From assembly GCF_000426725.1 (NCBI RefSeq), contig NZ_AUFX01000004.1:558001-622000 (forward strand): 64,000 bases of DNA. Direction: 5' to 3'. The position numbers and the translations under genes were made by a program. The stretch comes from Sporocytophaga myxococcoides DSM 11118 (lineage in GTDB: Bacteria; Bacteroidota; Bacteroidia; Cytophagales; Cytophagaceae). Position 1 is the first letter of the stretch, and every line of letters starts with the position of its first letter. The notes below the pieces were generated by a model. It was not told the origin of the DNA. It did not search any database and was given only the letters and a program-made list of their open reading frames with translations. Positions 36,831 to 52,353 of the stretch are shown here, piece after piece.

Positions 36831-37654
36831 TTATTTCAATGTTTTAATTGTTGAATTTGCCAGTAAAGACTTCATTTGATTTACTGCAATTTTATTAAGT
36901 TCAATTAGTCGTTGACTTTGTGATACTGCCTGACTTATTAAAAGTGCATTAATACTTTCCAAATTTGACAGAATAACCAATTGTTTTATAGTAGCATAAT
37001 CTCTGATATTTCCATCACTATTTGGATTTTCATGTCGCCATTCTTGAGCCGTCTTTCCAAATAAGGCCATATTTAAAACGTCGGCCTCACTTGCAAAAGT
37101 TAATTGAACGTCAGATTTACTCAACAAATTTGGAATGATGTTTTCTTTAATTGCATCTGTGTGGATTCTATAATTAACCTTTGAAAGGGTTCTCTGCAAA
37201 TTCCATCCTGACTGAAATCTATTATTTTCCTCTTCCTTCAGCCTCTGGAACTCTTTAATTATATATAATTTAAACTCTATTGAAATCCAGGACGCAAATT
37301 CAAATGCTATATCTTTATGAGCAAAGGTTCCTCCGAATCGGCCTGATTAGATGCAATACCAATTGCATTAGTTGATTCTATCCATTTTTTGGGACTCATA
37401 GTGAAACTATTAAGTCCAGCCTGATTTTTAAACCCGTCGAATTCGACGGATTTAAAATTTGGATTATGCAGTTGCTCCCAAAAACCTAACAATTCAAGAG
37501 TATTTCTATTTCTTAACCAATTTTTTATAATATCATCTGTGTTGGAAAAGTCTTTGTATCTGGCAATATCCGTTAAAGATATGTAATCCTGGTCATTATA
37601 ATTATGAATTATTATATCAATTCCCTGAACTTCTAATTTTGATTTCTTCATCAT
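36831..37654 (-). pseudogene. KilA-N domain protein gene with single-base frameshift
   Basis: Two same-strand pieces join into one KilA-N domain protein of about 274 residues. The first carries DIIIHNYNDQDYISLTDIAR, IIKNWLRNRNTLELLGFWEQ and GLNSFTMSPKKWIESTNAIG. At about 37331-37335 (GATTCGGAGG on the coding strand) one base is missing; restoring a G gives SGGTFAHKDIAFEFASWISI and continues without a stop through QRTLSKVNYRIHTDAIKENI to MKSLLANSTIKTLK. KilA-N is a DNA-binding domain of phage and mobile-element proteins, common as chromosomal stand-alone genes in Bacteroidota. The start used is the ATG of MMKKSK; a GTG lies two codons upstream. Real lesion or sequencing error cannot be decided here. 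Confidence 0.85.
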
Positions 37655-37718
37655 AGCCACTTGATTTAATATACTGTTGAAAAATTCTGATTTAGGTTTT
37701 AATTAAAAAATATAATTA

Positions 37719-40762: not shown

Positions 40763-41058
40763 ATTCTAAAATTTAAATTAAAGGGAAAATAATTTCCCGA
40801 GTTAAAATTAATGAAGCCTAAAGGATATTTAAGAAATAATCAGAATAAAATAACACAAAACAGGGTACTGGATAAAATCATTTCACCAATAACCTCTTAG
40901 AGCTTTATTTTTACAGATATAATTCCTCCCTGCCTTCTTTGTTGAAAAAATTCGGGAACAAATTTTATTGAAGAAGTCTACAAAATAGCGAGCAGCCTTT
41001 TTATTATCTGCTGGCATTTTAGTGATCAATCCTATTAGACCATTTTTAATTTTTTAAG

Positions 41059-41676
41059 ATGAAAAAAAACAAATTATTAGCAATTCTTTTCTCAGCATTC
41101 ATTGCGTTTGGATCCTGCAATCAAAAAGAACAAGTTCCCGGACCACAAGGACCTCCAGGAAAAGATGCCATTAATCCCTTTATTAAAAAAGAGGGTTTTG
41201 TAAAAGGCAAAATGTACGTCACAGATGAGCAAGGAGCAGATTCTCTGGTCGGTGATTTTAACTATGAATACACAACAGAGCCTTTTGTTCAATCTAAATA
41301 TATAAAAGGCGAAAACGGAAGCTTCAATATTGTAAGAAGCGACAGTTCAATGATCAGGAACAATTTTAATCTGACAAGCTATAAATCACCTATTCTAGGC
41401 CCTTCTGAAATTGCTATAGTAAACTTTTCCTATGAAAAAGATCTTGGAAATGGAAAGTACCTGACATTTGGCAAAAACATCGGTGTATTTGGCACTCCAG
41501 AAATTAAATTCTCAAACTATACCTTCAATGAAAATAACGGCAGAATGAAATTTGATTTCATTATCCTTTATCCTGCTTTCATATCCAGCAATGGCAGAGA
41601 ATCAAAAGTAGTGGGCTCTGCTGATGTAGTTCTTATCGAGGCTGTCTCTTTAAGAAAAGGAGAGCTAAGCAATTAA
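41059..41676 (+). CDS. collagen-stub lipoprotein 1 of 4
   Basis: A 205-residue predicted lipoprotein (SPII signal ending FGSC, Cys20). Directly after the lipidated cysteine is a short collagen-like stub, PGPQGPPGKD, then a beta-rich domain of about 160 residues: GFVKGKMYVTDEQGADSLVG, FNYEY, KDLGNGKYLTFG, FNENNGRMKFDF and a final VVGSADVVLIEAVSLRKGEL. The same block order recurs in the next three genes, so they arose by tandem duplication. The stub has only two or three Gly-X-Y triplets, too short for a stable triple helix by itself. Function unknown; a surface structural or adhesive role is inference. Confidence 0.8.
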   Translation: MKKNKLLAILFSAFIAFGSCNQKEQVPGPQGPPGKDAINPFIKKEGFVKGKMYVTDEQGADSLVGDFNYEYTTEPFVQSKYIKGENGSFNIVRSDSSMIRNNFNLTSYKSPILGPSEIAIVNFSYEKDLGNGKYLTFGKNIGVFGTPEIKFSNYTFNENNGRMKFDFIILYPAFISSNGRESKVVGSADVVLIEAVSLRKGELSN

Positions 41677-41774
41677 GATAAATGTATGTGTAAAGATGTA
41701 CGCTGATCTGTTGAAAGACCTACATATAATACATATAAAACTTTTTACTCAATCAAAATTTTTAATCAAATACA

Positions 41775-42428
41775 ATGAAAAAATATCAATTGTTTACAAT
41801 ACTATTTGCCTTAGCAATATCCATTTATTCGTGCGGAAAGAAAGATCCTATACCAGGTCCACAGGGGCCAGCAGGAAAAGATCTTAATATAAATTCCAAT
41901 TTAAAAGATGGTTATGTCAAGGGTAAATTATATTCTACTGGTAAGGACGGCAAAGACACTTTGCTTGGTGAATTTAATTATCAATATCTACTAAGCACTG
42001 ATGCTTCTTCATATAAAAGGGGAAATAGCCCATACATCTCCATTACAAGACAAGATAGCGCAGAAGTTGGCAGTAACTTCTATTTGTATAGTAACATAGA
42101 CATTACTGCAGATACCATAAAACCTGAACAGACTTTTATAAACTTTGCTTATGTAAAGGATCTGGGAAATGGGAAATATTTAAAATTCGGAGAAGCTTTA
42201 CGTTTCTTACCCATAGGAAGAACATCTGTAGGAACTCCATGGCAAGAATCTACTTTCTCTATAAGCAACTATAGCTTTAATCACTCAAACGGTAAGCTCA
42301 GTTTTGATTTTGAAATATTCTATGTTGCCGATGAAACGCTCTCCCGCAAGAAGGCCAAAGTAATTGGTTCTCTGGACGTCAACCTTAAAGAGATCATTTT
42401 TTTGAGAACAGGCAACTTAAACAATTAA
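41775..42428 (+). CDS. collagen-stub lipoprotein 2 of 4
   Basis: A 217-residue paralogue of the preceding gene. SPII signal ends IYSC (Cys20), followed by GKKDPIPGPQGPAGKD. The conserved blocks are DGYVKGKLYSTGKDGKDTLL, GEFNYQY, KDLGNGKYLKFGEA, FNHSNGKLSFDFEI and KVIGSLDVNLKEIIFLRTGN. It differs by an insert of about 12 residues (RTSVGTPWQEST) before the fourth block. It lies about 100 bases after copy 1 and 24 bases before copy 3, so copies 2 and 3 are probably translated from one mRNA. Confidence 0.8.
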   Translation: MKKYQLFTILFALAISIYSCGKKDPIPGPQGPAGKDLNINSNLKDGYVKGKLYSTGKDGKDTLLGEFNYQYLLSTDASSYKRGNSPYISITRQDSAEVGSNFYLYSNIDITADTIKPEQTFINFAYVKDLGNGKYLKFGEALRFLPIGRTSVGTPWQESTFSISNYSFNHSNGKLSFDFEIFYVADETLSRKKAKVIGSLDVNLKEIIFLRTGNLNN

Positions 42429-42452
42429 TCTATTTTTAAAACTTCAATTCAA

Positions 42453-43064
42453 ATGAAAAAAACTCAATTATATATTCTTGCATTAGTTTCAATAATTACC
42501 TTTTCAAGTTGTAAGAAAGACATAGAACCTGGACCCGCTGGCCCTGCCGGGACTGATGGTAAACCTCTTGATGAGTATTTCAAAAAAAACGGATTTGTAA
42601 AAATGGATATATATACAAAATCTACCACTGATACAGATTCATTAATTCTTTCAACAGAATACAAATATACTGAAGACAGAACGGACGCTCGTTATTCTGA
42701 AGGGGAAAAACCTGAATATACCATTTTGAGAATAAACCCCAGGAATCTAACCTTTGTATCAATTTACTCCGGAAAATCTCCCACTGAACCCCTGGAAAAT
42801 CAAAACATTCACTTTAACTTCAGCTTGAATGATACTTTGGGAAATGGTAAATTACTCTCTTTTTCAACAGGTTTTACAACCGCAGGAAAAGATCTGGAAA
42901 TAACAGATTATGCTTTTGATAAAGCTACAGGAAAGATCAAGTTCAAATTTAAAGGTACTTATGATAATATGGATCCCAATAGGATGGACCTGATTGTAAA
43001 GGGATCAACCGAGATATTACTTAATGAAGAAATTTATCTCAGAAAAGGATCTGTTATTGATTAA
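42453..43064 (+). CDS. collagen-stub lipoprotein 3 of 4
   Basis: A 203-residue paralogue, the most divergent. SPII signal ends FSSC (Cys20), followed by KKDIEPGPAGPAGTDGK, the longest stub with four triplets. Matching blocks are NGFVKMDIYTKSTTDTDSLI, TEYKY, DTLGNGKLLSFSTG, FDKATGKIKFKFKG and IVKGSTEILLNEEIYLRKGS. A perfect 22-base hairpin terminator follows, so the transcript of copies 1-3 probably ends here. Confidence 0.8.
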   Translation: MKKTQLYILALVSIITFSSCKKDIEPGPAGPAGTDGKPLDEYFKKNGFVKMDIYTKSTTDTDSLILSTEYKYTEDRTDARYSEGEKPEYTILRINPRNLTFVSIYSGKSPTEPLENQNIHFNFSLNDTLGNGKLLSFSTGFTTAGKDLEITDYAFDKATGKIKFKFKGTYDNMDPNRMDLIVKGSTEILLNEEIYLRKGSVID

Positions 43065-43082
43065 GGAACTTTATCCATTTTC

Positions 43083-43129
43083 ATAGCATAAAAAAAGCTT
43101 CTGCATAGCAGAAGCTTTTTTTATGCTAT
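43083..43129. terminator. 22-base-pair perfect hairpin terminator
   Basis: Bases 43083-43104 pair without mismatch with 43108-43129 around a three-base loop (ATA), with A7 and T7 tracts inside the stem, so it can act in both directions. It separates lipoprotein copies 1-3 from copy 4. Confidence 0.9.
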
Positions 43130-43225
43130 AATCTATTTATCGAATAAAACATCAGATTTCTATGATTTCTGTAACCTTATGCCTCAAAATCAGGTACAAT
43201 TCAAGGTTTTTAAAAAATGTATACG

Positions 43226-43867
43226 ATGAAAAAAATCAATTACCTATCAGTAGTTTTTGCAACACTTTTGATTATTAGTTCTGCCTGCAGCAAAAAAGAT
43301 CCTGTTCCTGGTCCTGCCGGCCAAGATGCCTTGAGAAAAGAAGGGAGTATCTCTGGTAAAATTTATAAGCTTAACTCTGCCGGAACCGGCGATACTCTTT
43401 TGGGAACATTCACCTATGAACATTTTGAATCCCTTGATGATGCATCTTATACTCTGAACTCTGAGTCTAAAGGAATAAACCTAGTAAGACGTGGCGCAAA
43501 GGAGTCAAATGACTACTTCGAACTCTTTTCAAATTACATTACCACTCTTGAAGAGAAACCAGACTCGACAAGGCTAACTATCAATTTTTCCTATAACAAA
43601 GCCCTGGGCAATGGAAAATATCTGAAGTTCATGACTTTCGATAACAATTTTTTTAGAAATGATATTTACTTTGGATACTCTTCTTCTACTCTTTCTATAA
43701 GTAATTATTCATTTAATAAATCTACCGGTAGATTAAAGTTTGACTATGAAATGAACATAGCTTCTTATGAAAACTCCACCTATAGTCCTGCCAAAGTAAT
43801 TGGTTCTGTAAACGTTACATTATTGGAAGCGGATTATGCAGATAATGGTCCTGTTATGGTTGACTAA
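43226..43867 (+). CDS. collagen-stub lipoprotein 4 of 4
   Basis: A 213-residue paralogue; an ATG three codons upstream is also possible. SPII signal ends SSAC (Cys21), followed by SKKDPVPGPAGQD, the shortest stub. Conserved blocks are GSISGKIYKLNSAGTGDTLL, GTFTYEH, KALGNGKYLKFMTF, FNKSTGRLKFDYEM and KVIGSVNVTLLEADYADNGP. The last two dozen residues diverge from the other copies. It is separated from copies 1-3 by a strong terminator and has its own terminator, so it is a separate transcription unit that may be expressed under other conditions. Confidence 0.8.
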   Translation: MKKINYLSVVFATLLIISSACSKKDPVPGPAGQDALRKEGSISGKIYKLNSAGTGDTLLGTFTYEHFESLDDASYTLNSESKGINLVRRGAKESNDYFELFSNYITTLEEKPDSTRLTINFSYNKALGNGKYLKFMTFDNNFFRNDIYFGYSSSTLSISNYSFNKSTGRLKFDYEMNIASYENSTYSPAKVIGSVNVTLLEADYADNGPVMVD

Positions 43868-43888: not shown

Positions 43889-43919
43889 AAAAAAGAAGGC
43901 TAATGGCCTTCTTTTTTGT
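43889..43919 (+). terminator. terminator after lipoprotein copy 4
   Basis: GAAGGC (43895-43900) pairs with GCCTTC (43906-43911), extended by AAAA/TTTT, followed by TTTTTTG. Confidence 0.82.
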
Positions 43920-45045: not shown

Positions 45046-45204
45046 AATCCATGATTATAATTTACAAGATTTACTTCTCCTATAAATTATACAAATGTCA
45101 ATGGATTGTAGTTCGCAGTAGCCCTGCTAAAGGAAGGTTACAACTCCCTCTTAGCTCATTTATGAAATAACTTCTGTGTAATACTTTTCCGAAAAGGTTT
45201 CCTT

Positions 45205-45813
45205 TTAATAATTAAAATCTTTTATAATCAACTTTGAACCTTGCTGGCTTATAAGCCTGATCATTTGATTCCGGACATCTATTTCCCATCTCCAGCCATT
45301 TTCAATTTCAGTAAGTTTCTTTAGGTTGTTTCCATATTTATCACAAACCCAAATAGTTTCAACACCTGACACTTCAGCAACCAGAATAATGCTGTTTGAA
45401 AGAGGTCTGGATGGAATGTACCTGTTATTAGAATGACGAAAAAGACCCTTATCTTCATATCTGTCAAGTGAATACTCATTGTTAAATTCAATGCTACCGT
45501 ATTCAGGAAAATACTTTGATTCAAAATAAAAACCTGATATTGTTCTTTTTACAGTGTCTTTAAAAATGTAATTCATTTGTTGTTTACTGATGTCATATAC
45601 AACAACGTCTCTTGTTATTTCCTTTTTTCTGACCTTGTTTTTGTTCTCGATGATCTTGAGTGTGTCCTCTACTCCTATGTATTGCAGATTTAGATTAGTT
45701 TCATATGTATTGATATCCAATTTAGAGTAATAATCATCATCTCCTCCGCTATCAATACTGAATAGGGTTTTAGCCAACAGGCAAATCATAAGAATCGAAT
45801 ATTTCATTATCAT
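45205..45813 (-). CDS. secreted hypothetical protein
   Basis: A 202-residue protein that I do not recognise, with an N-terminal hydrophobic signal (MIMKYSILMICLLAKTLFS; a second ATG lies two codons in). The mature part has a charged early region (SGGDDDYYSKLDINTYETNL) and a C-terminal half of beta strands resembling a single WD or six-bladed propeller-type blade repeat (VAEVSGVETIWVCDKYGNNL, then ENGWRWEIDVRNQMIRLIS). Exported, probably periplasmic. Same strand as, and 62 bases after, the helical protein gene at 45876, so possibly one operon. No function assignable. Confidence 0.6.
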   Translation of the reverse strand: MIMKYSILMICLLAKTLFSIDSGGDDDYYSKLDINTYETNLNLQYIGVEDTLKIIENKNKVRKKEITRDVVVYDISKQQMNYIFKDTVKRTISGFYFESKYFPEYGSIEFNNEYSLDRYEDKGLFRHSNNRYIPSRPLSNSIILVAEVSGVETIWVCDKYGNNLKKLTEIENGWRWEIDVRNQMIRLISQQGSKLIIKDFNY

Positions 45814-45875
45814 AACTTTTTAAAAATGGTTAATTAAAAATTTATTATAGTATTAACAAGAAACAGAATATAACA

Positions 45876-46523
45876 TCAAAGTCTCTTTTTTATTTTATTC
45901 ATGACCGTTTTATCCAGACCTGAATATTCCTCAAGCACCAGCGAAGGCATGCTCTTTATCAATGTTATTGTACTGGCATCTCCCACTTTCCTCACAGCAC
46001 AATAAGCAACGACAATATCTTCTTCACAGGCTTTTTTCTCTTTGCAAAAATTTAAAAAATGATGAATAAGACTCCGCAATAGAGCTTCATCTTGCGGTTT
46101 ATAATTAATTTCATCATCAAATGAAATCATGAGATTAAGGGCTGCAAGACATTTTAAAGCTACCTTATAATCCTGAATATCTGAGAGGACACAACTTTCA
46201 AGAACTTTAATAATCCCGATAAATGCATCATAAGTTTTCAACTCCTCCAAAACAGAAATTGCAAAGCCTGAATACTCCATGCCATCTTTTGCCAGATAAA
46301 CCATTCTGGAAATGCCATATTCAAAATAGGTTGCCACAATGAAAATCCACTTGTCAAAGGGAACTTCATCGGATCTCTTTTCTCCTTCACAAAGTATTAA
46401 ATTTAACTCCTTTAAAATGTGGAGAGTTTCTTTATTTCCTGTTTTAACCAATTGAAGTATGTCTTCTACTTCAATGTCATTATTTCGTGCTTTTTGAATT
46501 ATAGGCGTGTTGTTTTTTTTCAT
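45876..46523 (-). CDS. helical-repeat hypothetical protein
   Basis: A 215-residue cytoplasmic protein built from alpha-helical pairs (FDKWIFIVATYFEYGISRMV, FAISVLEELKTYDAFIGIIK, DYKVALKCLAALNLMISFDD, then LIHHFLNFCKEKKACEEDIV), a HEAT/ARM-like pattern expected of a protein-binding scaffold. There is no catalytic motif, signal peptide or membrane segment. I do not recognise the family. It is followed by the secreted gene at 45205. Confidence 0.6.
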   Translation of the reverse strand: MKKNNTPIIQKARNNDIEVEDILQLVKTGNKETLHILKELNLILCEGEKRSDEVPFDKWIFIVATYFEYGISRMVYLAKDGMEYSGFAISVLEELKTYDAFIGIIKVLESCVLSDIQDYKVALKCLAALNLMISFDDEINYKPQDEALLRSLIHHFLNFCKEKKACEEDIVVAYCAVRKVGDASTITLIKSMPSLVLEEYSGLDKTVMNKIKKRL

Positions 46524-46774
46524 ATCAGAAATAGTACTACCTATTCAGCTATTAAAGAAAAAATTAGTCTTAAAATATGTTCGTGAACCAAAATACTAGT
46601 ATACAATTTATTAGGCACAATGCGACCAATGCTATTAATCTTCAGGCTAAAAATTACTTTCAATTTTTCTAAAATTTATAATAAATTAAAGAAAATATAG
46701 CCTTAAGCGCAGGTAACCTTCCTGTCTAAATAAAGGTATTTTCAAATCATCCTTCTTAATTATCCCAGTGTTCT

Positions 46775-48646
46775 ATGAAAAAAAAACTACTCTCACTGGC
46801 CCTACTTGCCAATATTTACTTTGCTCAGGGACAAAACTTTATCAAAAGAAATGGAACGGAACTTGTTCTCTCTGAAAGCAGCGAAAAAATCATGCTAAGA
46901 GGACTTGCATTCGGAAACCGTGTATGGAGTAATGACCCTGTTCCCTCTGAACATCATACAGAAGCAGACATTGAGCGTGTTTCTAAAATCGGAATGAACT
47001 GCATTCGCTTTTATATGAATTATCAAACATTTGAAAGTGATGCGGCTCCATATACGTACAAAGATGCTGGCTGGAACTGGATAGACCAGAACATAGCCTG
47101 GGCTAAAAAACATAATTTATACCTGATTCTCAACATCCATGTACCACAGGGAGGCTTCCAGTCTCAGTGTAAAGGCGACGCCCTCTGGACTAATCAGGAC
47201 AATCAGGACAGACTAGTGGCATTATGGAAAGCAATTGCTGAAAGGTACAAAAATGAACCTCAGATTGCCGGATATGATTTGCTGAATGAGCCGACACCTA
47301 GCGGCACAATACAAAACTGGGACAATCTTGCAACTCGCATAACTGCTGCAATCAGAGACGTTGACAATAACCACCTTATCATTCTCGCAAATGCCATAGC
47401 TCTGGGCTGTAATTATTCTTTCAATGATGGAAAAAATAATTTTCCATTAACAGAAGATGAGAATGTGATGTACACACTTCATTCTTATGACCCATATGAG
47501 TACACTCATCAGAATCAATCCTGGGCTGGAACTGGAGAAGGGGGGAAATATCCTGATCCGGAAGTTCTTATCCCTCCATCTGATTTGGAATGGGGAATCG
47601 GTCAGTATAACAATAAAAAATTACCGAATGGAAATTCTGATTGGACCTATTTCAAAGGGCAGCCTTTTAAAATAACTAATGAAAACTATATACTCGGAAG
47701 ACCTGTACTTTACGGACAAATTCTTAACTCCGGTAAAGCATACTTCGATGATATAACTCTAAATGAAGTAGATGCCAATGGCAATGTAATAAGAGAAATT
47801 CTTAAAAGTGATTTTGATGATAAGACAAAATTCTCCTTCTGGATTCCTGAAAATGCAACAGGTTCTTCAGCTATATCCAATACAGGTCATACCGACTCTT
47901 ATTCAATAAGCGTCACAGGCACCAATAATTACTCAACCACCACTTTATATACCCTTCAATTCAAACCTGAGCTAAATAAATATTATGCTATCAGCGGATG
48001 GATGAAAGGAGAAGGAATTCCTGCAGGCTCGACAACAGCTATTTCCATGGAGTTTTATACTTCCAAATCAGGGGCTCCCGTATTGATTCGAGATTACGAA
48101 TATGTGAAAACGAATATCCTTCAGCTATCAAGTAAATTAAGAGAATGGGGCTACCCTGTTTACTATGGGGAATTTGGAGCAGTGAGAGAATGCTTTGGAG
48201 AAAAAGGTGGTCAGATTTGGGTAAGCGATGTATTGCATGTGCTGGATAGTCTTGGCTTCCACTTTACTTATCATGATTACAGAGAAGATGCTTTTGGCTT
48301 GTATAAAGGTGATAATGGTATTGTTGATGAAAGTACTGTCAATCAGCCTTTGTATGATGCCTTTACTACTTATTTTGAGGAAAAAGCAACATCGATAACA
48401 CCGATAACAGAGTCTTCAATTGCCCAGCTTTATCCTAACCCAAGCAAAGAGAATTTTAATCTGACTTTTAAAGTTCCTGTTTCGGGAAACCTGCAATTGT
48501 ATGATGAAACAGGTAGAAACATTTTATCTAAAAATATTATTGGTGAAACCTTTATCTCATTCGGAGAATCTTTACCTAACGGATTTTACCTCGGCCGTTT
48601 GGTAATCAATGATCAGCCTCTGGCTTTCAAAATTTCGAAACAATAA
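46775..48646 (+). CDS. secreted GH5 endoglucanase with an inserted beta domain and T9SS sorting domain
   Basis: A 623-residue secreted cellulase. Signal peptide 1-20 (ending AQGQ). The GH5 barrel shows the conserved LRGLAFGN, IGMNCIRFYMNY, the acid/base Glu172 in YDLLNEPTPS, LHSYDPYEYTHQ with the active-site His/Tyr (236, 238) and the nucleophile Glu466 in YYGEFGA. Between barrel strands, about residues 265-445, is a roughly 180-residue insertion with jelly-roll-like strands (VLYGQILNSGKAYFDDITLN ... YAISGWMKGEGIPAGSTTAI), resembling a carbohydrate-binding module. The C-terminus (about 545-623, QLYPNPSKENFNLTF) is a T9SS type A domain. It would cleave beta-1,4-glucan outside the cell. A shared terminator follows. 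Confidence 0.93.
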   Translation: MKKKLLSLALLANIYFAQGQNFIKRNGTELVLSESSEKIMLRGLAFGNRVWSNDPVPSEHHTEADIERVSKIGMNCIRFYMNYQTFESDAAPYTYKDAGWNWIDQNIAWAKKHNLYLILNIHVPQGGFQSQCKGDALWTNQDNQDRLVALWKAIAERYKNEPQIAGYDLLNEPTPSGTIQNWDNLATRITAAIRDVDNNHLIILANAIALGCNYSFNDGKNNFPLTEDENVMYTLHSYDPYEYTHQNQSWAGTGEGGKYPDPEVLIPPSDLEWGIGQYNNKKLPNGNSDWTYFKGQPFKITNENYILGRPVLYGQILNSGKAYFDDITLNEVDANGNVIREILKSDFDDKTKFSFWIPENATGSSAISNTGHTDSYSISVTGTNNYSTTTLYTLQFKPELNKYYAISGWMKGEGIPAGSTTAISMEFYTSKSGAPVLIRDYEYVKTNILQLSSKLREWGYPVYYGEFGAVRECFGEKGGQIWVSDVLHVLDSLGFHFTYHDYREDAFGLYKGDNGIVDESTVNQPLYDAFTTYFEEKATSITPITESSIAQLYPNPSKENFNLTFKVPVSGNLQLYDETGRNILSKNIIGETFISFGESLPNGFYLGRLVINDQPLAFKISKQ

Positions 48647-48666
48647 TAATTTTAAGCAGAAATAAT

Positions 48667-48705
48667 AAAACAGCCAGTCAAAAATCTTTGACTGGCTGTT
48701 TTTAT
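48667..48705. terminator. bidirectional terminator
   Basis: A 16-base stem, 48667-48682 with 48687-48702 (AAAACAGCCAGTCAAA and complement) around a four-base loop, with A/T flanks on both sides. It separates the convergent cellulase and subtilase genes. Confidence 0.9.
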
Positions 48706-48723
48706 TAGGACCTATATTGAACC

Positions 48724-51700
48724 TTATCTTGCAACAGTGAATTTCCTGACCTCTTTGAAGCTGTTTGTTTTAATGACGAACATGTAGAAGCCACTTGGAA
48801 TATTTGAGATATCCAGCTCAATAGGATAGTCCGTATCATTTACAATAAACTCCTCGCTAAGCAACTGGGCGCCATTCATATCGAGAATTTCCAGTTGAAC
48901 CTCTCCGGCCTCTGAGCCAGGGGCCCAGATATTTAATTTGTATTCAGCAGGGTTAGGATACACTACAATATTTTTTGCATCTAAAGGCAGATCAAATGAT
49001 GCAATTTTACTATCTGTTTCGGCAGGTGTCAATCTTGCAGAAGGTATAATCTGTTTGGGCTGGCTGGGGCTGGACCAGGAAAGCGATATCACAGCAGAAC
49101 CTACATTCTCAAAGTACTCCAGCACAACATCATACTTCTCACCTGCAAGCAGATTGATGACTCCACTATTTTCAGTTGCCGGATGATCTGTAAAGTTATT
49201 GATGATCTGTACTCCGTTCACCGATAAACGCACGCCGTCATTAGAGGTAGTATAAAATCTGTATTGCTCAGAATAAACTGCCTCTACCTGCCCCGTCCAT
49301 CTGATAGAAAATTTATCTACCCCAATATTTGGAGCAGGACTATTTGTACCAAAATTAAAATTAACAACAGAATCTATTCTTGAATATCCATTCTGATCAA
49401 AATTCAAATCCCTGAAATAGGTACCTAACAGACCATGTTGTGTTGTTTGCTCCTGAGGCTTTCCAAACGGTGAAAGCCGGCTGCCTGGAATAGGTCGTTC
49501 CAATGTGGCATCAGGCAATTGCCAACCTACGGCAAGGTTATCATTACTTGCGCCTTGCTTGTGAAGTGCTTCTATATAATATGTTTTCCCTCCGACAAGC
49601 GCTATGGATGCTGATCTTTGAGAAGGATATTTTGTCCATTCTCTCACACCTGTATATCCGGTAACACTTGCAATTCTTACTTTGTTACTAGGCGTATCGT
49701 CTGTGCTTAGCCAAAGTTCACTATTGTCGTTGCTTGAAATCCAGAAAATATAATTTCCGGATAAAGGAGCGCAGATAGTCCCACGAATCCTTTGTCCATA
49801 GTTAATACCAAAATTTGTTGGCGCTTCAAAAAGCGTTAATGAGCTTGACTGGTTAGGAGAAGTGTTTACTGGAATATTTGAAACAACACTTCCTGGAATG
49901 GAGGTCCAAACCTCTCGGGTAATCGTACCCGAAGCGTTACACAAGCCCTGTACTTCGACTGCAGATTTGTTAATTGCATAAGCTCTTTCACTTATGATGC
50001 CCGAAGCTGTTTTTGCCCTCACACTCATCCAAACTTCATTTTCAGTGCCTAGTGGTCTGTTCTGGAACACATATGATGTTGCGGTTGTTGTAGCTTCAAA
50101 TTCAATAACCTTATCCTGCGGTTCCAACAAATAAACATCATAAGAACTTGCTCCCGGAACGGGATTCCATTCAAACTTAATTGAACCGGTTGATGGATTA
50201 GACGCTACGAGGTTTGAAGGAACGCTCAGTACAGAAAAATTTCGTATGCTCTGACTGGAAAATGAGCCACTCCTCACACGCACTAGCATTGCTGCTGGAC
50301 CAGAAGGTACAAACCAATCCGCATAATGCTGATTTGAGGGTATATCGGATGCGATGTTAATCCATGAGCTTCCATTGTTCGTTGAATATTCTGCCGTATA
50401 GTTTCCAGTACCAAAAGCATCCCATCGGATTTGTGTATATTCATTCGGAATGAGAGATTCATTTCCATAAGGAAATGTCAGTGCTATAAAAGGTCTTACA
50501 AATTCGTAAGCAACAACGTATCTCTGAGGCCCGAAGGGTATTGCTGTTCCTTTAATATTAACAGTATAACTTCCCGCATCGGGATTGTCAACTGTTACCT
50601 GTTCTATATTGTTAATATTATCCACACCTCTTACAGCTATACTCTCCGGATTTGCAGAAGAGAGAACCCATGGCAGGTAAGTGTTAGGAGACTTTGTAAT
50701 CTGAATGTCAAGATTATTCACAAGATTCACTGAGCTGAACTCTGCACCTTCTTTATCTTTCCAGTACAATAATACCCTTAACTGACCGGTGCCACTTGGA
50801 ACATTAATTGTATGTGTCAGATTCTGCCCCTGGCTTATGGTGTTTTCAAAATATAAATTTGCTTCCAGTGCTTCGACAGCTCTTTTGGAATTTATTCTTC
50901 CAAAGCCATAAGAATAATCCGGTCCGGCGTTTCCAAGATCATCCGCAGTATTACAAACCAGCGCTTTGATAATATCTGCATTGGGCCTAACACCTTTCAG
51001 TTGATTATACCTTTCATATAACAGGGTAACGCTACCTGTCACACCAGGACAAGCCATGCTTGTTCCGGAAAAGTAAGTATAGCTATTCCCAGGTAATGTT
51101 GAGTATACGCTTTCTCCAAGTCCAACTATCTCTGGTTTCAGTCTTCCATCATTGACAGGACCTTTTCCAGAAAACCCGGAAATAACATCATGTTCATTTA
51201 CCGAACCCACAGACAAAACATTTTTTGCTGTAGCCCAGCCGGAGCTTACAGTATAAAATCCAGCTGCACCACCATTATGAGTAGCCACTACATGTAGCAA
51301 ACCCGGACTTACCACATTATCTTGTGTCTTATCTGTATAATTACTTGAGTTATCATAAACTCCCCAATAAGAAAGATAACCATAGGAGTTATTTGTTACA
51401 GTCATTCCATAAGTATTGTAATAGGAAGGTCCATTATTGATTAAGCCTGGGAAACTTTGCGCAACCAGGTTGGCATTAAAAGCAGCCCCCCTGGCTCTTG
51501 GATCAATATTTCCAGATCCTCCTGTGGTGCCTGCTACGTGTGTAGCATGATTATTAATAGCCGGAGGAGAAAGATTGGTGATCCTCACAGGTTTAAGATC
51601 CTGGTGTATCCCTATTGCACCTTCATCATCGATACCCACGGTGAGTCCATTTCCTGATAAACCTCTTTGCCCCGCAAAATCAGATTGCAGCACATTGTTT

Positions 51701-52353
51701 CTATGCTGATTTACTGAAATAAAATTGCTATGCTCAGGCTTAGGAGGTGCAGGCATGATATATGATATCTGTGGAACAGATCCCAGAGCCTGAATTCTTC
51801 CTGATGAAATTCTAATTATCAAACTATTCTGGAATGGAGAACTTTTTATAATTACAGCGCCCAGATTAGCTAATGAATGCTTTAAACGTATTGTATCTGC
51901 GTCCTGGAAATAAGTTACTTCTAAGTCTGTAAACGTCCTTTTTTCCTTTTTAACTTCTCCATTCAGCTTTTCATCTATTTTATGTTCCGGTAAAATTTTT
52001 TCAATGCTTCTTATTTTAAATTTTTTTATTTCATCATCTGTAAGAGCTCTTTGAAATGAGGCCCAATACGCATAATTGGGAACGTACTTCAGAAGAGTTG
52101 TACCTGCGCTTTTTAATTGAGCCTGGGTCGTTTCATTTGGCAATTCAAAGAACTGTATAAGTATGTATTCCTGATGTTCACTTCTTAGATTCTTTATTTT
52201 TTGAGAAAGGTTATTGCCCTCTTCGGGGCAATATTGACCGGACTTGTAAACTATACAATATTTATTTTCAGTCTGGGAAAATGCATCAACAAAAACGGAT
52301 TGAATAAATATCATGAACAAAGTCATGACCGATAACCGGTAAGAAATTATCAT
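48724..52353 (-). CDS. S8 subtilisin-like protease with Fn3 and tandem PA14 domains, T9SS-secreted
   Basis: A 1209-residue secreted protease. Signal peptide 1-26. An N-terminal inhibitor-like prodomain (about 30-210) contains LIQFFELPNETTQAQLKSAG. The peptidase shows Asp243 in VGIDDEG, His269 in NNHATHVAGT and Ser432 in SGTSMACPG; the second His-box residue is Ala rather than the usual Gly (HATH instead of HGTH). Then come Ig-like strands (NEYTQIRWDAFGTGNYTAEY), an Fn3 domain (VPSNLVASNPSTGSIKFEWN), a PA14-like domain (RIRGTICAPLSGNYIFWISS) and a true PA14 domain (HGLLGTYFRDLNFDQNGYSR, then YRFYTTSNDGVRLSVNGVQI). PA14 usually binds carbohydrate. A T9SS type A domain (IVVYPNPAEYKLNIWAPG) ends it. 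Confidence 0.92.
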   Translation of the reverse strand: MIISYRLSVMTLFMIFIQSVFVDAFSQTENKYCIVYKSGQYCPEEGNNLSQKIKNLRSEHQEYILIQFFELPNETTQAQLKSAGTTLLKYVPNYAYWASFQRALTDDEIKKFKIRSIEKILPEHKIDEKLNGEVKKEKRTFTDLEVTYFQDADTIRLKHSLANLGAVIIKSSPFQNSLIIRISSGRIQALGSVPQISYIMPAPPKPEHSNFISVNQHRNNVLQSDFAGQRGLSGNGLTVGIDDEGAIGIHQDLKPVRITNLSPPAINNHATHVAGTTGGSGNIDPRARGAAFNANLVAQSFPGLINNGPSYYNTYGMTVTNNSYGYLSYWGVYDNSSNYTDKTQDNVVSPGLLHVVATHNGGAAGFYTVSSGWATAKNVLSVGSVNEHDVISGFSGKGPVNDGRLKPEIVGLGESVYSTLPGNSYTYFSGTSMACPGVTGSVTLLYERYNQLKGVRPNADIIKALVCNTADDLGNAGPDYSYGFGRINSKRAVEALEANLYFENTISQGQNLTHTINVPSGTGQLRVLLYWKDKEGAEFSSVNLVNNLDIQITKSPNTYLPWVLSSANPESIAVRGVDNINNIEQVTVDNPDAGSYTVNIKGTAIPFGPQRYVVAYEFVRPFIALTFPYGNESLIPNEYTQIRWDAFGTGNYTAEYSTNNGSSWINIASDIPSNQHYADWFVPSGPAAMLVRVRSGSFSSQSIRNFSVLSVPSNLVASNPSTGSIKFEWNPVPGASSYDVYLLEPQDKVIEFEATTTATSYVFQNRPLGTENEVWMSVRAKTASGIISERAYAINKSAVEVQGLCNASGTITREVWTSIPGSVVSNIPVNTSPNQSSSLTLFEAPTNFGINYGQRIRGTICAPLSGNYIFWISSNDNSELWLSTDDTPSNKVRIASVTGYTGVREWTKYPSQRSASIALVGGKTYYIEALHKQGASNDNLAVGWQLPDATLERPIPGSRLSPFGKPQEQTTQHGLLGTYFRDLNFDQNGYSRIDSVVNFNFGTNSPAPNIGVDKFSIRWTGQVEAVYSEQYRFYTTSNDGVRLSVNGVQIINNFTDHPATENSGVINLLAGEKYDVVLEYFENVGSAVISLSWSSPSQPKQIIPSARLTPAETDSKIASFDLPLDAKNIVVYPNPAEYKLNIWAPGSEAGEVQLEILDMNGAQLLSEEFIVNDTDYPIELDISNIPSGFYMFVIKTNSFKEVRKFTVAR

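Follow-up and report, generated by a model that had tools for sequence, protein, structure and literature searches.

Extracellular heads carried on collagen-like stalks are the closest described counterparts of the genes considered here. Lcl of Legionella is reported to hold a trimeric extracellular head on a Gly-X-Y region between membrane and head, and relatives of Lcl were reported from Bacteroidota (PMC11162425). For surface lipoproteins of Bacteroidota, a second report describes an export signal, C-X-K-(D/E)2-X, or Q-A-(D/E)2 near the Cys (PMC5080379). We analysed a stretch of 64,000 nucleotides from Sporocytophaga myxococcoides DSM 11118 (contig NZ_AUFX01000004.1, positions 558,001 to 622,000; the whole stretch is called the window), where four genes in a row encode predicted lipoproteins whose lipid anchor is followed by a stub of two to four Gly-X-Y triplets. 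The collagen region of Lcl is, by comparison, a long repeat. What is new is a family of lipoprotein heads whose stem ranges from a long collagen-like run down to a two-triplet stub, described nowhere in the open-access literature searched (by title or abstract). We propose, with a probability of about 55%, that the four proteins are surface-facing lipoproteins with a binding or adhesive head on a short, conserved stem. The genes, in window coordinates, are as follows.

41059..41676, plus strand: copy 1, lipoprotein of 205 aa, stub PGPQGPPGKD, 3 triplets (from the open reading frame [ORF] and alignment).
41775..42428, plus strand: copy 2, lipoprotein of 217 aa, stub PGPQGPAGKD, 3 triplets (from the ORF and own-genome search).
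42453..43064, plus strand: copy 3, lipoprotein of 203 aa, stub PGPAGPAGTDGK, 4 triplets in register (from the ORF).
43217..43867, plus strand: copy 4, lipoprotein of 216 aa, stub PGPAGQD, 2 triplets (from the ORF).

The gaps between the genes are 98, 24 and 152 bp, and copy 4 has a possible alternative start at a second in-frame ATG (43226), three codons downstream. Each copy is laid out as a lipoprotein signal up to the Cys, a charged stretch, 2–4 Gly-X-Y triplets and a domain of about 165 residues. All four N-termini open with a Lys-containing region, followed by a hydrophobic core and then a lipobox (GSC, YSC, SSC and SAC), 4/4 copies passed a regular-expression pattern for signal peptidase II lipoproteins, and we infer that the proteins are lipidated. 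When copy 2 was used as query against its own genome, copies 1, 4 and 3 were returned at E 5.6e-43, 9.8e-34 and 6.3e-16, and no fifth copy was found in the 6.34-Mb genome (21 contigs), the next match having an E of 0.32. Copy 3 was the weakest match to copy 2 and has the longest branch among the four. In the four-copy alignment LGNGK is invariant, and the blocks FN..xG..xF and V.GS...L.E are largely kept. An initial annotation of this DNA, made from its letters, had described four paralogous lipoproteins with a Gly-Pro stub after the lipid anchor and a shared domain, and had allowed that the domains might prove to lack homology; the ORFs and stubs are present as it described them, and the copies are homologous well beyond chance (E 6.3e-16 or better in the copy 2 search), pairwise homology among them being strong.

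The head domain could not be matched to a catalogued family. Scans of the four proteins against Pfam, NCBIfam, PHROGs and PADLOC gave nothing above cut-off; Pfam scans of 23 family members gave a best E of 0.011, with no family in more than two members; and a PDB sequence search with two profiles gave no match at E 10. The annotation had allowed that a profile search might place the domain in a well-studied family; the search was run and no match to such a family appeared, so that the domain stands as uncatalogued, with no Pfam, NCBIfam or PDB match above cut-off. The DUF1566 head was not listed for the four proteins or for ten distant members at E up to 1. The Pfam Collagen family (PF01391) has Gly-X-Y triplets in register, as in the window stubs, and was not listed for the four window proteins at E up to 1. 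In how they work, the window proteins would come closest to surface heads on collagen stalks, Lcl among them, yet they are not members of that group, because they have neither DUF1566 (trimeric in Lcl) nor another named head, the four give no Pfam Collagen match, and their anchor is an N-terminal lipid whereas an amphipathic helix has been proposed for Lcl.

An AlphaFold model of copy 1, run with the four full-length copies, reached a pLDDT of 44.5, and a model of the copy 4 domain with nine sequences gave eight strands at a mean pLDDT of 48.2 and a pTM of 0.53, the first two and last three strands being best defined (block-mean pLDDT about 55–70). In the PDB, Foldseek ranked photosystem II chain O and Ycf58, which is fatty-acid-binding-like, at the top and lipocalins further down, none of them at E ≤0.001; query TM-scores were 0.11–0.38 among the 50 matches listed. 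We take photosystem II chain O to be PsbO, a barrel. Pfam Lipocalin_4 appeared below threshold for copy 3 only (E 0.24) and for 1 of the 23 members (E 3.7). Lipocalin-like and fatty-acid-binding-protein-like eight-stranded barrels are alike in length and share the eight strands predicted here, but the head has no match to their sequence families, and the comparison uses a low-confidence model. A barrel or sandwich is a lead only.

Spread of the family was assessed with a full-length profile of the four copies, a domain-only profile of 23 rows and a broader profile of 45 rows; these searches score the first 9–11 candidates per genome, and the counts are lower bounds. The full-length profile had matches in at least 16 of 39 nearby genomes, own genome included, several of which span signal and stub only (e.g., at loci L046 and L047). 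The 23-row profile matched at least 11 of 19 genomes of the taxonomic family, own included (23 of the 26 places listed in that search being rows of the profile itself), and at least 19 of 291 genomes of the order, own included. The 45-row profile initially matched at least 10/395 genomes of the class and at least 5/395 of the phylum. Four candidates (G497, G600, G609 and G830) were rejected as members, their matches being weak (E 4e-5 to 5e-4) and lying in open frames of 655–769 aa (G830 not read). After exclusions the counts were at least 7/395 for the class and at least 3/395 for the phylum, own genome included in both; one genome (G908) was counted on its match alone (E 4.4e-22), without its sequence being read. 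The matches place the head in a Bacteroidota family, often in tandem arrays, with few members beyond the order. No match was found in phages (copy 2 query), plasmids (copy 4 query) or viral contigs (four-copy profile), hence there is no sign of mobile origin.

Linkers between anchor and head were tabulated for 55 members, counting the four window copies; L099 would have been a 56th, but the Cys pattern missed it, and its linker looks like a long stretch of collagen-like sequence. A linker with 2–15 triplets in register was present in 47 of the 55. The eight exceptions were the six members of one array in genome G109 (acidic, probably helical), one Thr/Asn-rich linker and one short linker of neither kind. 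Five rows (L097, L091_7773, L042_4201 and two of L093) begin at a too-early Cys and have lengths that are off, the count of members with two or more triplets being unaffected. Among members with a triplet linker, triplets numbered 5–15 outside the taxonomic family (except G529, with 2) and 2–5 inside it (except G008, with 11). The linker thus reads as a replaceable, length-variable spacer, near its short end in the window genome. Of the options that the annotation had offered for the stub, a spacer is the best fit, since a non-collagen linker takes the same position in two members and in one six-gene array; no result of the analysis, none of which was aimed at it, pointed to a cross-linking handle. 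With longer collagen-like or other spacers in relatives, the stub resembles a tunable stem rather than a relic. The six-member array (L093:6682-11992) carries its acidic, probably helical linker in place of the Gly-X-Y triplets. In L096, L099 and L100 the proteins are about 334–352 residues long and the match to the head is interrupted or drawn out, as would follow from an insertion of about 100 residues in mid-domain.

These linkers also bear on whether the proteins could be miniature trimers, in which the heads trimerise and the triplets start a true collagen triple helix by the membrane, stabilised by the anchors and heads. Two of ten distant members have linkers that pass the Pfam Collagen cut-off of 27.2 bits (L096_5716 and L099_936; scores of 32.4 and 29.5 bits), the acidic linker of the G109 array has the heptad-like spacing expected at a trimer stem (suggestive only, since its score was reached or exceeded by 69/2000 column shuffles), and Legionella Lcl is itself reported as a trimeric head on a collagen stalk (PMC11162425). 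Conversely, two members have linkers with neither a collagen-like nor a helical look. A stable triple helix needs more than two to four triplets, which also counts against a trimer, and we regard this arrangement as unlikely. A wider scheme, which we hold to be decidedly unlikely, would have lipid-anchored trimeric beta heads throughout the Bacteroidota members, on exchangeable stems of triplets (2–15), helical bundle or unstructured chain, with very short stems kept under selection in Sporocytophaga and tandem heads differing in height and specificity.

The annotation had called the stub vestigial, and comparison of the window genome (G000) with a second Sporocytophaga genome (G002) speaks against this. 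In copies 1–3 the stub was better conserved than the head (29/32 versus 283/498 residues identical, Fisher P 5.6e-5), and the retention of triplets in most family members does not fit a decayed repeat either. For copy 4 the stub was identical at 7/7 residues and the domain at 161/179. Since the comparison covers one species pair and 32 stub residues, with the signal peptide left out, the effect is significant but not large. No glycine of the register is lost in the four window copies or in their orthologues, and stub conservation together with the kept glycines argues for retention under selection. A collagen stalk that shrank in this lineage to a remnant now functionless would accord with the shorter linkers inside the family (2–5 triplets versus 5–15 outside), so shortening in the lineage is possible; with the stub so well kept between species and its glycine register unbroken, we consider loss of function decidedly doubtful.

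Within this genome the stub is uncommon among the lipoproteins sampled. In 464 kb (the window plus 400 kb, the other 93% of the genome lying outside the sample) 31 ORFs passed the lipoprotein pattern, a few of them probably false positives, and the stub was present on four, all of them copies 1–4. Two other Sporocytophaga lipoproteins (L046:6360-6974 and L047:6424-7035) have an eight-triplet stub (by eye) on an apparently unrelated body, so the stub is also found on other lipoproteins of the genus. It is very improbable, to our judgement, that PGPxG is a handle read by an export, processing or modifying factor and extending the export signal: the element does directly follow the charged post-Cys residues and is strongly conserved, but 27 of the 31 sampled lipoprotein candidates lack it, and 8 of the 55 family members do without it.

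The history of the cluster separates copy 4 from the other three, whose extent is given by blastn break points.

40853..43165, no strand assigned: copy 1–3 block, approximate extent, in the window genome and G002, absent from G001 and G003.

All four copies occur in G002, in unchanged order; in G001 and G003 copy 4 is the only one, and the homology of these two genomes to the window ends at 40852 and resumes at 43162–43170. Copy 4 is common to all four genomes of the genus compared, at 85–91% identity in G001, G002 and G003. That copy 4 stands apart, as the annotation had suggested, is borne out by a block without counterpart in two other species of the genus. Between G000 and G002 orthologues of copies 1–3 were 54–63% identical overall (copy 1, 54%; copy 2, 62–63%), with dN 0.25–0.36, dS 1.35–1.80 and dN/dS 0.14–0.26. 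Copy 4 was 91% identical with a dS of 0.56, and eight flanking genes were 88–98% identical with dS 0.37–0.78. Four-fold sites at identical residues differed at 55/93 positions in copies 1–3, 347/886 in the flanks (P 2.4e-4) and 16/51 in copy 4; single flanking genes reached 0.49, versus 0.55–0.64 for copies 1–3. Deeper divergence of the copy 1–3 block, e.g., by allele exchange, would be a fair reading of these values.

In a tree of 45 domains, five long branches of which are unsurely placed, all Sporocytophaga copies formed a single clade (100/97) whose two branches are copy 4 (99/99) and copies 1–3 (96/92). The other copies group mostly by genome or genus, e.g., those of G109 (100/100) and G017 (100/99), which implies that tandem expansion recurred; copies of G252 and G285, and the second-locus copies of G010 and G014, intermix within their genus. 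If the split between copy 4 and copies 1–3 predates the species, the simplest account is that G001 and G003 lost the block; its gain by transfer would be the alternative.

Two hairpins flank copy 4.

43083..43129, no strand assigned: perfect 22-bp inverted repeat with a 3-base loop and seven T in the 3' arm, inside the 152-bp gap.
43889..43917, plus strand: 12-bp inverted repeat with six T in the 3' arm, terminator-like, 3' of copy 4.

The perfect hairpin that the annotation had noted between copies 3 and 4 is present, and it is probably an intrinsic terminator closing the copy 1–3 unit. Its G002 version is 11 bp long; there both bases of the pair next to the loop differ and pairing is kept (by eye). 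Homology in G001 and G003 resumes about 35 bases past the hairpin. Terminator-like sites in the stretch numbered 9 versus 3.6 in shuffles, an excess. Spacing and hairpins suggest that copies 1–3 would be expressed as one unit and copy 4 separately. An Rfam scan gave nothing at gathering score.

In the proposed mechanism the four genes would yield outer-membrane lipoproteins, most likely facing outward, each with a lipidated Cys followed by a short charged stretch, as read from the sequence. A Gly-X-Y spacer, presumably an extended, polyproline-II-like rod, would keep the head off the membrane, and comparison indicates that its length and chemistry vary between relatives. The head, of about 165 residues and roughly eight predicted beta strands, would be the working part and most likely binds a surface ligand, glycan or partner protein. 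Copy 4 would be the conserved core gene and copies 1–3 an accessory block diverging quickly, in keeping with surface binding proteins whose diversity arises through tandem duplication. The lipid anchor, the probable outward orientation, the lack of an enzyme family match, the tandem duplication and the rapid divergence favour a role in binding or adhesion. Bacteroidota surface lipoproteins likewise have polar or basic and then acidic residues behind the lipobox Cys, and their minimal signal is K-(D/E)2, whose adjacent acidic pair is lacking in all four window copies (PMC5080379). By eye, residues +2 to +6 run basic then acidic in 4/4, with a single acidic residue in 3/4 and an adjacent acidic pair in 0/4, which makes surface exposure of the four no more than plausible.

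Several points weigh against this proposal. Residues +2 to +6 (NQKEQ, GKKDP, KKDIE and SKKDP) bear a loose likeness to C-X-K-(D/E)2, and charged starts of a similar kind occur on other lipoproteins of the genome. None of the adjacent genes in the window gives a hint of function. The copy 4 model is poor (pLDDT 48, pTM 0.53), and a Foldseek search of the PDB and of viral models had no match at E ≤0.001. The stub is shortest in copy 4, the best-conserved of the four. Weak constraint or allelic replacement could account for the extra divergence of copies 1–3, and their dN/dS values give no sign of positive selection overall. The promoter patterns tried (a Bacteroidetes consensus and sigma-70) showed no enrichment, the plus strand ahead of the four genes has no exact copy of the Bacteroidetes pattern, and none of them supports the two-unit reading.

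An uncatalogued head (in Pfam and NCBIfam terms) recurs across part of Bacteroidota, including a cellulose-degrading gliding genus for which the proteins capturing cello-oligosaccharides were reported as unknown (PMC6247017). If the stub is a tunable stem, the family forms a natural series for the minimum useful number of Gly-X-Y triplets and is suited to asking whether collagen-like and helical stems interchange. Copies 1–3, fast-evolving and present or absent beside a constant copy 4, offer a tractable case of surface diversification.

In four other genomes (G004, G010, G014 and G017; L039, L040, L041 and L042) the array and a DUF4421 gene are convergent, with a lysine-decarboxylase-like gene nearby (identified by a scan in G010/L040; the other three look similar by eye). 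G010 and G014 also have a second locus, of one and two copies respectively, close to a protein with a CHU_C domain of the type IX secretion system (T9SS), with PorP/SprF also near it in G010. In the window's genome one DUF4421 gene was found, on another contig, and no ORF of the 19-kb stretch around it matched the G004, G010 and G014 stretches at E 1e-10. The DUF4421 neighbourhood was considered as a functional link, was not found at the window locus, and was not used.

A second variable block lies close by, at 45115–48724. Its gene at 46775–48646, which we take to be GH5-like with a probable T9SS tail, is in the window and G002; in G001 and G003 the 44635 gene is directly followed by the 48724 gene. 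Two smaller ORFs (45205–46523) gave no match at 1e-8 in the three stretches compared. On the minus strand, 36831–37660 holds a gene maybe broken into two ORFs, presumably of KilA-N type, and the G003 counterpart of its downstream piece lies in one 274-aa ORF (L038_13766). Also on the minus strand, 48727–52353 encodes a secreted protein of 1209 residues with a subtilase domain, PA14 and a T9SS sorting tail.

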